A stretch of 64,000 bases of DNA from Myxococcales bacterium (lineage in GTDB: Bacteria > Myxococcota_A > Polyangia > Polyangiales > Houyiibacteriaceae), in NCBI GenBank assembly GCA_024640845.1, contig JAHEEE010000005.1, positions 1 through 64,000 of the forward strand, read 5' to 3'. The notes below the pieces were generated by a model. That model saw nothing but the letters and a program-made list of their open reading frames with translations, made no database searches and had not been told where the DNA came from. The position numbers were made by a program, and so were the translations under genes. Below, piece after piece: positions 2,140-44,199 of the stretch (position 1 is its first letter; the number at the start of each line of letters is the position of its first letter).

Positions 2140-4638
2140 ATGGCGCGTTTCATTTCTTTGATTGCTTTGTGTGGATTGTTGGCGGCCGCTGGATGCAGCT
2201 CGTCTGATGGGGGCGGAGTCGCCGGGAACGGTGGCAACGGCGGCGGCGGCGAAGGCGGCACGGGCGGCAGCGTTGCTCTTTGCGGCGACCTCAGTACCGA
2301 GGATCTCCCCGGTGATCCAGGGGACGGAAACTATGACGCCAACATCGTGTGGACGCAGTACGGCATTCCCCATGTGACCGCCGACGACTGGGGAAGCCTC
2401 GGCTACGGAGCCGGCTACGCCTATGCGAAAGAGAACTTCTGCGTCCTGATGCAGGAAGTGATCCGCGCCAACGGCGAGAGCATGCGTTGGTTCGGCAACG
2501 ACGGAGGAAACCTCGCGGACGACCTCGTGTACCGCTTCTACAGCAACGACGAGTACATCGAGAACGAGTTCATCGCGGCCGCCGACGAGACGCTGCAAGC
2601 GATGACCGTCGGATACGCCGAGGGCTTCAATCGATATCTTGCGGAGACTGGCGTCGAAAATCTTCCAGAAGGCCCCGAGGGCTGCCGCGGTGCGGATTGG
2701 GTTCGACCGATCACCGAGATCGACCTCGCCAAGGTGTATCGAAAGCTCATCCTCCGAGCAGGCGTGGGCACCTTGGCTCCGCTCATTCTCGCCGCGGACG
2801 CGCCGACGATGACGATGGCGGCCAAGAGCCGGGTCGTGCCGGAAAGCGTGCTGATCGAGGAGTCGGCCTGGGGCATGCCCGAGGCGACGGCGATGGGCAG
2901 CAATGCGTACGGCATTGGAGCGGAAGGCTCGCAGACCGAGTACGGCATTCTGCTCGGCAACCCCCACTTCCCCTGGCGCGGGCCCGAGCGTTGGTTCCAG
3001 CAGCATCTCACCATTCCTGGTGTGTACGACGTGATGGGCGCCTCCCTTCAAGGCGTTCCGGTGGTCAATATCGGCTTCAACGGGAACCTTGCCTGGTCCC
3101 ACACGGTGTCGACCGCTCGGCGATTCACCGGCTATGAGCTGCACCTGCTCGAGGATGACCCGATGAAGTACATGTACGATGACGAGGTCCTCGACATCGA
3201 AACCTTCGAGGTCCCCATTCAGGTGAAGCTCGAGGACGGGACGATCGAAGACACGATCCAAGCGATTTACACCACGCAGTACGGTCCGATCGTCGATCTC
3301 GCTCCGGTCAACGGCGCTTTCGGTGGCTGGCCGACCGGGAACACCACGGTCGTCGCCGTTCGCGATGCGAACATCGACAACACTCGCGCGCTCAATCAAT
3401 TCCAGGCCATGGGCAAGGCGAACTGCATCGCCGAGCTCGAGCAGGCGCTCGCGATGATCGGGCTTCCATGGGTGAACACCATCGCCGCAGATCGCCAAGG
3501 TGCGGCCCTCTACGCCGATATCACGACCGTGCCGCATGTGAGCGCGGAGAAGCTCGACAGCTGCGCGGACTCCATCATTTCGGTTGGACTCACCGCGAAC
3601 CGTTTCTTCACGCTCAACGGTTCACGAAGCGAATGCCAATGGGGCAACGACCCGGGTGCGCCCCCGGGGCTCTTCGGCGTCGAGAACTTGCCTAAGCTCG
3701 AGACGAGTCCCGATGTGCCCTACGTGGCGAATTCGAACGACAGTTACTGGTTGAGCAACCCGAACCAGCTGCTCGAGGGCTTTTCCCCCCTGATCGGCAA
3801 CGAAGGCGTTCAGCAGTCGCTCCGAACCCGGCAAGCCTTCGTGCAAGCCGAGGAGCGACTCGCCGGCACGGACGGACTCAGCGCCGAGCCGGGTTTCACG
3901 GTCGAGCTCCTTCAGGACGTCATGTACGGCAATCGCAACATCGCGCAGGAGCTGACGCTCACTGACGTGCTGTCGATTTGCGATAGCGTCGGAGACTGGA
4001 GCGCCTACAGCGCCAATCCCGTCGAGGCAGCGAGCGCATGCGGAATTCTCGCGGCTTGGGACGGCCTCTTCAACAACGGCAGCGTCGGCGCGATGATTTG
4101 GAACGAGCTCTGGCGTCGAATCGACAACAACGCCGACCTCTGGGCCGTGCCCTTTGACGCAAACGACGCGGTCAACACACCCAATACACTCAACGACGAA
4201 GACCCCGACGTCGTCGAAGCGGTGAAGGAGGCCATCGGCGCGGGCGTGGACTTCATGGTGAATGGCGGTATTCCGCTCGACCGACCTTGGGGAGAGGTTC
4301 AGTTCCGTCCGGTAGGCGAAGGTCAGAACATCCCGATTCACGGGGGTTCCGGACGATTCATGTTCAGCGTGATCAGCTCGAGATTCGTCGACCAGGTGGG
4401 CTACGCCGACATTCCAACAGGCAACAGCTACATCCAAACGGTGACCTGGGATGAAAGCGAATGCCCCGACGCGTATGCGGTGCTCACTTACTCCCAGTCC
4501 ACCAACCCCGCATCGGACCACTACGCGGACTTGACCCAGGTCTACTCCGACAAGGGCTGGAACGACATGCCGTACTGTGCCGCCGATATCGAGGCCGCCA
4601 AGATCGACGAAATCGACATCAGCAACTCGGAAAACTAG
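2140..4638 (+). CDS. Penicillin acylase family (Ntn hydrolase) lipoprotein, acyl-homoserine-lactone acylase-like
   Basis: Lipobox start MARFISLIALCGLLAAAGCSSSDGGG (ATG 2140, in frame within ORF 2011-4638). Family motifs: QYGIPHVTADDWGSLGYGAGYAYAKENF, GSNAYGIG, LGNPHFPWRGPERWFQQHLTIPG, GFNGNLAWSHTVS. Confidence 0.88.
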   Translation: MARFISLIALCGLLAAAGCSSSDGGGVAGNGGNGGGGEGGTGGSVALCGDLSTEDLPGDPGDGNYDANIVWTQYGIPHVTADDWGSLGYGAGYAYAKENFCVLMQEVIRANGESMRWFGNDGGNLADDLVYRFYSNDEYIENEFIAAADETLQAMTVGYAEGFNRYLAETGVENLPEGPEGCRGADWVRPITEIDLAKVYRKLILRAGVGTLAPLILAADAPTMTMAAKSRVVPESVLIEESAWGMPEATAMGSNAYGIGAEGSQTEYGILLGNPHFPWRGPERWFQQHLTIPGVYDVMGASLQGVPVVNIGFNGNLAWSHTVSTARRFTGYELHLLEDDPMKYMYDDEVLDIETFEVPIQVKLEDGTIEDTIQAIYTTQYGPIVDLAPVNGAFGGWPTGNTTVVAVRDANIDNTRALNQFQAMGKANCIAELEQALAMIGLPWVNTIAADRQGAALYADITTVPHVSAEKLDSCADSIISVGLTANRFFTLNGSRSECQWGNDPGAPPGLFGVENLPKLETSPDVPYVANSNDSYWLSNPNQLLEGFSPLIGNEGVQQSLRTRQAFVQAEERLAGTDGLSAEPGFTVELLQDVMYGNRNIAQELTLTDVLSICDSVGDWSAYSANPVEAASACGILAAWDGLFNNGSVGAMIWNELWRRIDNNADLWAVPFDANDAVNTPNTLNDEDPDVVEAVKEAIGAGVDFMVNGGIPLDRPWGEVQFRPVGEGQNIPIHGGSGRFMFSVISSRFVDQVGYADIPTGNSYIQTVTWDESECPDAYAVLTYSQSTNPASDHYADLTQVYSDKGWNDMPYCAADIEAAKIDEIDISNSEN

Positions 4639-4720
4639 TTGATTTGCTCCGGAACTTCCGAGTCTCGCAGCGTCCGGTCGAAGCGCTATCATCGCTGTTG
4701 ATGGCACTCATGAGGACAAG

Positions 4721-6169
4721 ATGACCGAGCTCGGAAGACCATCCACGAGCGCTCAGTACAAGCTCACGGCACGGATCGAGTGCCCCCATGCGTCCGGCTG
4801 GATCGCTCGCATCGGGGGTGTGATCGGTGAGGCCGGCGGGGTCATTCACGCGATTGATCTCGTTCAGGTGATCCGAGGCAATAGCGTCAGGGACTACTCG
4901 ATCGACGCATCGTCCGTCGAACATGCCCAGCAGATCGTCGATGCCGTGGGTCAGATCGACGGGGTCACGCTCCACTCCGTTTCCGACGACACGATGTTGA
5001 TGCACCTTGGCGGGAAGCTCGAAATCTCCCCGAAGATGCCGCTGAAGACACGAGCGGATCTATCGATGGCCTACACCCCCGGCGTTGCTCGCGTGTGCAA
5101 GGCGATCTGCGAGGACTACAAGAAATCGTTCAATCTGACGATTCGCAAGAACTGCATCGCCGTGGTCTCCGACGGTAGCGCTGTTTTGGGCCTGGGTAAC
5201 CTCGGAGCCGCAGCGGCGATGCCGGTCATGGAGGGCAAAGCAATTCTCTTCAAGGAGTTCGGCAATGTCGACGCCTTCCCGCTTTGCGTGTCGACGCAAG
5301 ACACTGACGAAATCGTTCGTTTCTGCGAACAGATCGCGCCGACCTTCGGAGGCATCAACCTAGAAGACATCTCCGCGCCTCGTTGCTTCGAGATCGAGTC
5401 ACGTCTAAGGGAATCGCTCGACATTCCCGTATTTCACGACGATCAACACGGAACGGCCGTCGTGGTCCTCGCGGCGCTCATCAATGCGCTCAAGGTGGTC
5501 GACAAACGCCCCGAAAACCTCAAGGTCGTCGTATCCGGGGCGGGCGCCGCCGGAGTCGCCTGCACGAAGCTCCTTGCCGATTATGGGGTTCGGAATCTCG
5601 TCGTGGCCGATTCGCAGGGTGCCATCCATGGCAAGCGCGACCTCGGAGACAATGACGCGAAACGTTGGCTCGCCGAGCACACGAACCCGAACGGGGAGGC
5701 CGGCCCCCTTTGCGAGGTGATCGCGGGAGCGGACCTGTTCATCGGGGTGTCGGCGCCCAACGTCCTCTCGCGTGATGACGTGCAGCGCATGGCGCCATCG
5801 CCCATCGTTTTCGCGTTGAGCAATCCGGATCCCGAGGTACAGCCCGAGCTCGTTCAGGACATCGTCGCGGTGATGGCAACCGGGCGAAGTGACTTTCCGA
5901 ACCAGGTCAACAACGTGTTGGCTTTCCCTGGCATCTTTCGAGGCGCACTCGACTCACGCGCCAAGGACATCAACGAAGCGATGAAGCGTGCGGCCGCCGA
6001 GGCAATAGCAGCGGTGGTGACGGAGCAAGAGCTGTCGGCGGACTACATCATTCCGAGCGTCTTCAATCGAAAGGTTAGTCGGCAGGTTGCGACGGCCGTT
6101 GCTCGAGCAGCGCACCGGACCCACGTGGGTCGCCGTATGCCCAAGGGCACTGACGTGCTTCGTCCTTAG
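4721..6169 (+). CDS. NAD-dependent malic enzyme with N-terminal ACT-like domain
   Basis: MAYTPGVARVCKAI, VVSDGSAVLGLGNLGAAAAMPVMEGKAILFKEFGNVDAFPLC, NLEDISAPRCFEIE, FHDDQHGTAVVVLAAL; N-terminal ~80 aa resembles an ACT domain. Confidence 0.92.
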   Translation: MTELGRPSTSAQYKLTARIECPHASGWIARIGGVIGEAGGVIHAIDLVQVIRGNSVRDYSIDASSVEHAQQIVDAVGQIDGVTLHSVSDDTMLMHLGGKLEISPKMPLKTRADLSMAYTPGVARVCKAICEDYKKSFNLTIRKNCIAVVSDGSAVLGLGNLGAAAAMPVMEGKAILFKEFGNVDAFPLCVSTQDTDEIVRFCEQIAPTFGGINLEDISAPRCFEIESRLRESLDIPVFHDDQHGTAVVVLAALINALKVVDKRPENLKVVVSGAGAAGVACTKLLADYGVRNLVVADSQGAIHGKRDLGDNDAKRWLAEHTNPNGEAGPLCEVIAGADLFIGVSAPNVLSRDDVQRMAPSPIVFALSNPDPEVQPELVQDIVAVMATGRSDFPNQVNNVLAFPGIFRGALDSRAKDINEAMKRAAAEAIAAVVTEQELSADYIIPSVFNRKVSRQVATAVARAAHRTHVGRRMPKGTDVLRP

Positions 6170-42513: not shown

Positions 42514-42532
42514 AACCTTCCCAGGTTCGATT
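42514..42532 (+). repeat. Left REP-like element: AACCTTCCCAGGTTCGATT
   Basis: 19 nt, exact reverse complement of 43750-43768; internal hairpin AACCT-TCCC-AGGTT. Confidence 0.75.
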
Positions 42533-42569
42533 TGAAGCAATCGAGCGCCCGAGTGGCCGATATCCGGGC

Positions 42570-43457
42570 ATGTCCCTTCCGCGACGCGTTCTCCCCCACC
42601 AGACCTACCTCATCACCCGCCGTTGCCTGGGCCGTCGGTTTCTGCTCCGCCCGGACGACTCGCTCAACAACGCTTTCGTGTATTGCCTAGCCCTGGCAGC
42701 CGAGAAGCACGGCGTTGCGGTCCACGCGCTTTGTGCGATGAGCAATCACTATCATCTCATCCTGACCGACACCGAAGGCGTGCTTCCAGACTTCATGGCC
42801 TGGTTCAATCGACAACTTGCAATGTGCGTGAAGCGACTCAGGCGCTGGGACGAAGTGGTGTGGGAGCCGAACGTCGCCTACAGCGCCGTGGAGCTCACCG
42901 GCGCTTCCGAAGTGCTCGACAAAGTCGCCTACGTGATCCTGAACCCGGTCAGCGCGGCGCTCGTGCGTTCACAAGAACGATGGCCGGGCGCAGTGAGCAA
43001 GCTCGAGTTCCTGGGCGCGGGCGTCATGAAGGCCAAGCGCCCCGCTGTATGGTTCAAGGACAACGCTCCCGAGCGCGTGAATCTCCCCTTGAGTACTCCT
43101 CCCTGTTTCTCGGAACAGGCAAGCTACCTTCAAGCTCTCGATACACTCATTGATGCCCGTCTTTTGCAGGTCCGAGCTGAGCTCCGACGCAAAGGCCGTG
43201 GGTATCTGGGCCGTGCTCGTGTGCGCAAGACCATCGTGACAGCGCAGCCCAAGAGTAGGAAGGCGCGCTTAGGCCGCAATCCGACCTTCTCTGCGCTAAC
43301 TCGAGTCGCTTGGCGGGTCGCAACCCAGCGCCTGCGGGCCTTCCGCCGTGCGTACCGCGAGGCCTATCGTGCCTGGCGAGAAGGAGATCGATGGGTTGCG
43401 TTCCCGGCGGGCACATGGTGGGTCGTACGGTGTGCGGGCGCGACTGCGGCATCGTAG
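42570..43457 (+). CDS. Y1/IS200-like transposase, REP-associated tyrosine transposase (RAYT) type
   Basis: MSLPRRVLPHQTYLITRRCLGRRFLLRP, HALCAMSNHYHLILTD (HxH), DFMAWFNRQLAMCVKR, VAYVILNPVSAALV; basic C-terminus. Confidence 0.85.
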   Translation: MSLPRRVLPHQTYLITRRCLGRRFLLRPDDSLNNAFVYCLALAAEKHGVAVHALCAMSNHYHLILTDTEGVLPDFMAWFNRQLAMCVKRLRRWDEVVWEPNVAYSAVELTGASEVLDKVAYVILNPVSAALVRSQERWPGAVSKLEFLGAGVMKAKRPAVWFKDNAPERVNLPLSTPPCFSEQASYLQALDTLIDARLLQVRAELRRKGRGYLGRARVRKTIVTAQPKSRKARLGRNPTFSALTRVAWRVATQRLRAFRRAYREAYRAWREGDRWVAFPAGTWWVVRCAGATAAS

Positions 43458-43555
43458 CCATGCAATAAGCTCGAGGAGCGCGAAGGGGAGCGGAAACTCC
43501 GGCCCGTTCACGCTGGACGAGACCTCGTCTTGGCAGGCCGCTATCATGGACGGCG

Positions 43556-43735
43556 ATGGAGGATACCGTTCAAATCAGTTGCCCGTACTGCTTCGAGAGC
43601 CTCGAAGTCTACATCGACCCGCAGAGCGAGGGGGAGCTGATTCGCGACTGCGATGTCTGTTGTCGACCTTGGCTGTTGCAGGTCGCGCGCGGCGTCGATG
43701 GGAGCTTGTCCGTGCGGGTATCGCGCGCACAGTAG
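43556..43735 (+). CDS. CPXCG-motif small Cys-rich protein (59 aa)
   Basis: Not in the ORF track. Read directly: MEDTVQISCPYCFESLEVYIDPQSEGELIRDCDVCCRPWLLQVARGVDGSLSVRVSRAQ*. Confidence 0.8.
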   Translation: MEDTVQISCPYCFESLEVYIDPQSEGELIRDCDVCCRPWLLQVARGVDGSLSVRVSRAQ

Positions 43736-43749
43736 ACGACGGGTGGGCG

Positions 43750-43768
43750 AATCGAACCTGGGAAGGTT
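43750..43768 (-). repeat. Right REP-like element, inverted copy of 42514-42532
   Basis: AATCGAACCTGGGAAGGTT on + strand, exact reverse complement of the left copy. Confidence 0.75.
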
Positions 43769-43789: not shown

Positions 43790-43918
43790 CTACTTGAGAG
43801 TTTCGAGGCCCGTCGGGACATCTTTCTTGGCTGCCTTGGCCGGCTTTTTCGCCTTCTTCTCTTTGGTCGTGAGTTTGGGTGCGTTCTTTGTATCGCTTCT
43901 CTTGTGGTCTTTGGACAT
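43790..43918 (-). CDS. Very small Lys-rich protein (42 aa), hypothetical
   Basis: Not in the ORF track. Read on minus strand: MSKDHKRSDTKNAPKLTTKEKKAKKPAKAAKKDVPTGLETLK*. Confidence 0.5.
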   Translation of the reverse strand: MSKDHKRSDTKNAPKLTTKEKKAKKPAKAAKKDVPTGLETLK

Positions 43919-44144: not shown

Positions 44145-44199
44145 TTGTCGGACCTGGGTTGGCACCGTAGGTTTTGTCGAACCTGGGTTGGCACCGTAG
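44145..44199. repeat. Two 26-nt direct repeats with a 3-nt spacer
   Basis: TTGTCGGACCTGGGTTGGCACCGTAG (44145-44170) and TTGTCGAACCTGGGTTGGCACCGTAG (44174-44199), one mismatch. Confidence 0.85.

Follow-up and report, generated by a model that had tools for sequence, protein, structure and literature searches.

The transposase gene and its flanking hairpins

The locus described here belongs to a Myxococcales bacterium (assembly GCA_024640845.1, contig JAHEEE010000005.1) and was analysed within a 64-kb stretch of DNA, hereafter the window, with all coordinates given on the forward strand. It comprises a gene for a RAYT-family transposase and a gene for a small CPXCG protein, both enclosed by a pair of short inverted repeats, as well as repeat-like sequences farther downstream:

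42514–42532, + strand: left hairpin terminal repeat, AACCTTCCCAGGTTCGATT (sequence match, chance test, folding; core also present in orthologs)
42533–42569, + strand: leader from the left repeat to the RAYT start codon (a relative is retained in the mini-element L158)
42570–43457, + strand: RAYT-family Y1 HUH transposase gene, 295 aa, H60-Y-H62 and Y121 (motifs, profile matches, predicted fold)
43458–43539, + strand: 3′ spacer past the RAYT stop codon, shortened at this locus by the CPXCG unit (most orthologs have about 200 nt)
43540–43547, + strand: GCTATCAT, −10-like box ahead of the CPXCG gene (relatives have a similar box, as compared by eye)
43556–43735, + strand: CPXCG small-protein gene, 59 aa, an enclosed host gene (Pfam PF14255, E 7e-13)
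43750–43768, − strand: right hairpin terminal repeat, reverse-complementary to the left one at every position (sequence match, chance test, folding)
44145–44199, − strand: two degenerate repeat-like copies in tandem (CCAACCCAGGT[TC]CGAC), which have half of the repeat in common and lie in right-repeat orientation

The initial annotation had placed a Y1 HUH transposase gene (SNHYHLIL) and a CPXCG gene within a perfect 19-nt inverted pair, each copy of which was a hairpin, and both genes as well as the pair, at 42514–42532 and 43750–43768, proved to be where it put them. Its assignment of the transposase to the RAYT family is likewise upheld, the top fold match being a REP-bound RAYT. The 295-aa frame contains the motifs SNHYHLIL and YVILNP, and NHYH and YVILNP are invariant across 10 RAYT orthologs. 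The protein matches the REP_Tyr_transpos model (NF047646) with an E-value of 2e-13, yet stays under the curated cut-off, and gives a weak match to the Y1_Tnp profile and none in a sequence search of the PDB. The predicted fold (pLDDT 72) is closest to 4ER8, the Escherichia coli RAYT in complex with a REP hairpin, with ISDra2 TnpA ranking second among the PDB matches. By its Y1 HUH fold and its HUH and Y-x3-NP motifs, the protein is a RAYT (TnpA-REP class 2). Approximately 170 residues lie C-terminal to the catalytic tyrosine; the motifs, the core of roughly 111 residues and the long C-terminus agree, in a comparison confined to motifs and length, with subclass 2.1 in the table of PMC6006769. 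No tnpB was found adjoining the gene.

As single-stranded DNA, each 19-nt copy is predicted to form a hairpin in which a 5-bp stem closes a 4-nt loop (−2.6 and −3.3 kcal/mol), with a folding z-score of about −3 that beats nearly all shuffles. Allowing up to one mismatch, AACCTNNNNAGGTTCGA occurs in the 64 kb at two sites only, both of them the repeat pair, where shuffles predict 0.02. The initial annotation had left the wider distribution of the 19-mer to a genome-wide search, which uncovered the two RAYT-flanking copies and no other intergenic ones in this genome: throughout the 4.14-Mb assembly (145 contigs, 95.6% complete), the 17-nt core with up to two mismatches is confined to these two sites, without a third copy, and none of five CCCAGGTTCGA matches on other contigs has a hairpin. 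This absence of further copies is one of the two findings that the initial annotation would have counted against its own reading. Since the core has no copies elsewhere in the genome, nothing points to recent activity at this locus. The genome encodes five such RAYTs; among the four paralogs, L050 has its own clear inverted pair, L049 a weaker one and a third (on C46) an upstream B-type repeat.

The degenerate tandem copies at 44145–44199 possibly represent a decayed outer array that would belong to the unit. Directly outside the right hairpin lies a lysine-rich 42-aa frame (43790–43918, − strand) with no Pfam match. The sequence GGTTCGATT resembles a tRNA T-arm, but a tRNA or other known RNA at the repeats was rejected, the window containing no tRNA and no Rfam match.

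Inverted hairpins at related RAYT loci

At 12 other loci of this RAYT group within the genus (63–78% identity), the hairpin core recurs in the same inverted arrangement, on the + strand upstream and on the − strand downstream, in one to several copies and often in arrays; the position of the core at about −55 relative to the RAYT gene is also retained. Variants of the repeat match across the gene, where L004, L036 and L038 carry ACGTT and L044 carries AGGG at either side, an agreement which was read by eye and in which L004, L036 and L038 may represent a single clade. In three genomes (L034, L035 and L037; genes 91–94% identical), the leader and the 3′ spacer are common to the units as far as the hairpins, beyond which the DNA is unrelated; in L035, homology starts at TCCCAGG, inside the left hairpin. 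This confinement of homology from hairpin to hairpin indicates that the hairpins form the boundaries of a mobile unit. In four other genomes (L039, L040, L041 and L043), the flank downstream of the unit is common to the four loci, and part of the RAYT group thus seems to have been inherited in place.

The constant spacing between hairpins and gene would also suit a regulatory function, in which the hairpins act on the RAYT gene as a terminator, an attenuator or binding sites for a protein and do not serve as transposon ends. Such a function would not account for the homology of the three units stopping at the hairpins, nor for the repeat copies and the mini-element located away from any RAYT (see below), and we consider it very improbable.

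Between the RAYT stop codon and the right hairpin, the spacer remains near 200 nt in length across the diverged loci L034–L044, without conservation of its sequence. A conserved RNA in this 3′ spacer was rejected as a candidate, since sequence conservation is found only among the three nearly identical units. Cleavage inside the loop, hinted at by truncated array copies, was also dropped, because other repeat variants account for part of the breaks.

Across the order, the upstream and downstream flanks of 69 RAYT loci with enough flanking sequence were compared for inverted matches. A strong inverted pair was detected at 24 of the 69, against 1.0 predicted from shuffles and 6 direct matches, an excess whose significance is only indicative, the 69 loci being mutually related; at the same threshold, the strong pair is absent from 45. 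The downstream arm is located 195–320 nt past the stop codon in 20 of the 24 paired loci. Two main repeat types occur at the RAYT loci, TTCCCAGGTTCG and AGATCCGACCGA[GC]GTTG, and within the genus the latter reaches up to 18 copies per genome, controls yielding hardly any match. That the pair in the window arose by chance would be compatible with its two copies in this genome, but the frequency predicted from shuffles and the conservation of the pair in the orthologs, which already contradicts chance, leave this explanation a negligible probability.

Dispersed repeats and the enclosed CPXCG gene

Sister genomes contain between 0 and 13 exact copies of CCTTCCCAGGTT (0–1 for controls). In three of them (G003, G006 and G007), 18 of 25 exact copies are without a coding-like frame, as judged by a crude index, and some dispersed copies form close inverted pairs without a RAYT; at 20 sites in these genomes, on contigs devoid of an A-type RAYT, no RAYT was found within the 1–2 kb read. 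One mini-element of about 80 nt (L158; G006, contig 123, about 1018–1103) has the RAYT leader, as far as the start codon, set between the left and the right hairpin, and no close ortholog of the present RAYT was found in the G006 assembly (about 90% complete).

Dispersed copies lying mostly outside coding-like frames, together with inverted pairs in these three genomes, are what one would expect if the hairpin were a REP spread by the RAYT into many intergenic copies, as in Pseudomonas and E. coli, and the initial annotation had accordingly proposed a REP/RAYT (REPtron-like) unit. The RAYT, its cognate inverted hairpins and the dispersed copies and inverted pairs in relatives all agree with that proposal, but they do not amount to a REPtron in the strict sense: instead of many dispersed copies, there are two in this genome and 0–13 per sister genome, the foot of the stem lacks the GT[AG]G tetranucleotide (the flanks being CAAC and CGATT), and the protein falls short of the REP_Tyr_transpos cut-off. 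A true REPtron is therefore unlikely.

The initial annotation had also described the unit as spanning a non-transposase gene, which is true of this locus, where CPXCG is enclosed, but not of the orthologous units, none of which has CPXCG between the RAYT and the right repeat. Homologs of CPXCG are present in 12 of the 19 genus genomes in all and are elsewhere unlinked to this RAYT; the gene follows a tRNA-Pro gene in G003 and G007 and a tRNA-Pro fragment in G010 and G012. Its similarity to relatives starts at the −10-like box (43540) and ends at the stop codon. Judging from these comparisons, CPXCG is an ordinary chromosomal gene that relatives do not normally have within the unit. Either the unit would have landed directly before CPXCG, the right hairpin beyond it stemming from a separate event, or CPXCG would have been caught between the unit ends; that the two 19-mers are identical would rather speak for a matched pair. 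The insertion site was examined by seeking CPXCG and the upstream polyketide-cyclase-like gene in the genus and comparing up to 20 kb around each with the window. No relative in the genus has both neighbours, synteny being lost on both sides, and no occupied/empty pair was found for this locus.

In G010 (C522), the CPXCG gene (4691–4864) is positioned between a pair of B-type hairpins at 4600 and 4942. Given that CPXCG lies within A-type hairpins here and within a B-type pair there, it may be a recurrent passenger; that RAYTs bearing terminal inverted repeats (TIRs) move host genes trapped between two hairpins, CPXCG perhaps recurrently among them, is a tentative idea to which we assign a low probability. 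On the same contig of G010 (L106, reverse-strand positions), about 1.85 kb separates a nearly complete tRNA-Pro gene from a 25-nt sequence identical to the 3′ end of that gene. This segment contains a membrane desaturase-like frame (CarF-like by eye), has a B-type hairpin at one edge and looks like an insertion at the tRNA adjoining CPXCG.

Relationship to TIRtrons and a possible mode of mobility

The term TIRtron, or TIRYT, denotes a RAYT-like gene located between inverted repeats other than GTAG REPs (PMC3733652), which is the arrangement found here. The unit is a TIRtron by layout, and this is a better label than REPtron; the protein, too, suits the TIR-associated RAYTs better than the REP-associated ones and appears most like subclass 2.1 in motif and length. 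Most TIRYTs fall in TnpA-Y1 subclass 2.1, for which the authors found no REP (PMC6006769). As in the present unit, known TIRs are partly self-complementary, partly organized as dimers or clusters and modest in copy number, and the proteins have NHYH and Y-x3-NP motifs and an extra C-terminal region. The present unit differs from known TIRYTs in its repeat sequence, many of the known ones sharing GGGGWSAS, in its small 5-bp hairpins occurring in arrays, in the host gene enclosed here and in its Myxococcota clade, which is unnamed in the text of PMC3733652 and PMC6006769. With the E. coli REPtron (TnpA-REP; PDB 4ER8), it shares the Y1 HUH fold and inverted hairpins at the gene, but lacks the GT[AG]G foot, has few copies and encodes a longer protein. 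The TnpA proteins of the IS200/IS605 family (ISDra2, IS608) also have the Y1 HUH fold, with hairpins near the element ends, whereas here Y-x3-NP replaces Y-x3-Q, the C-terminal region is long and the ends are in inverted order. Very probably, the unit is thus of a known kind, a RAYT with terminal inverted repeats; no paper on RAYTs of Myxococcota was found in the collection of literature searched, and such units seem undescribed in this bacterial group.

We are fairly confident that the locus is a TIRtron, in which a single-stranded DNA transposase (a TIRYT resembling subclass 2.1) is accompanied by two short terminal inverted repeats of its own, each forming a hairpin. Recognition of single-stranded hairpins and Tyr121-dependent cleavage are likely, as judged by analogy to proteins of the RAYT and IS200/IS605 groups. 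The transposase would bind the hairpins in single-stranded form, for instance on the template of the lagging strand, with a corresponding choice of strand, and its HUH/Tyr121 site would cut at or near them. The stretch between the inverted pair would then be moved or copied, usually with the RAYT gene, sometimes as a deleted mini-element and sometimes as hairpins only, and hairpins alone may accumulate as arrays at the unit ends. In this genome, only the gene-flanking pair would be left, and the chromosomal CPXCG gene would have come to lie inside it by one of the routes outlined above.

The subclass that this RAYT most resembles has been described as having no recognizable REP-like DNA partner (PMC6006769). 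A clade with hairpin ends, repeat variants matched on both sides of the gene, hairpin-to-hairpin homology and a mini-element supplies defined 19-nt candidate substrates for such transposases and is relevant to the question of how terminal repeats could give rise to REPs.
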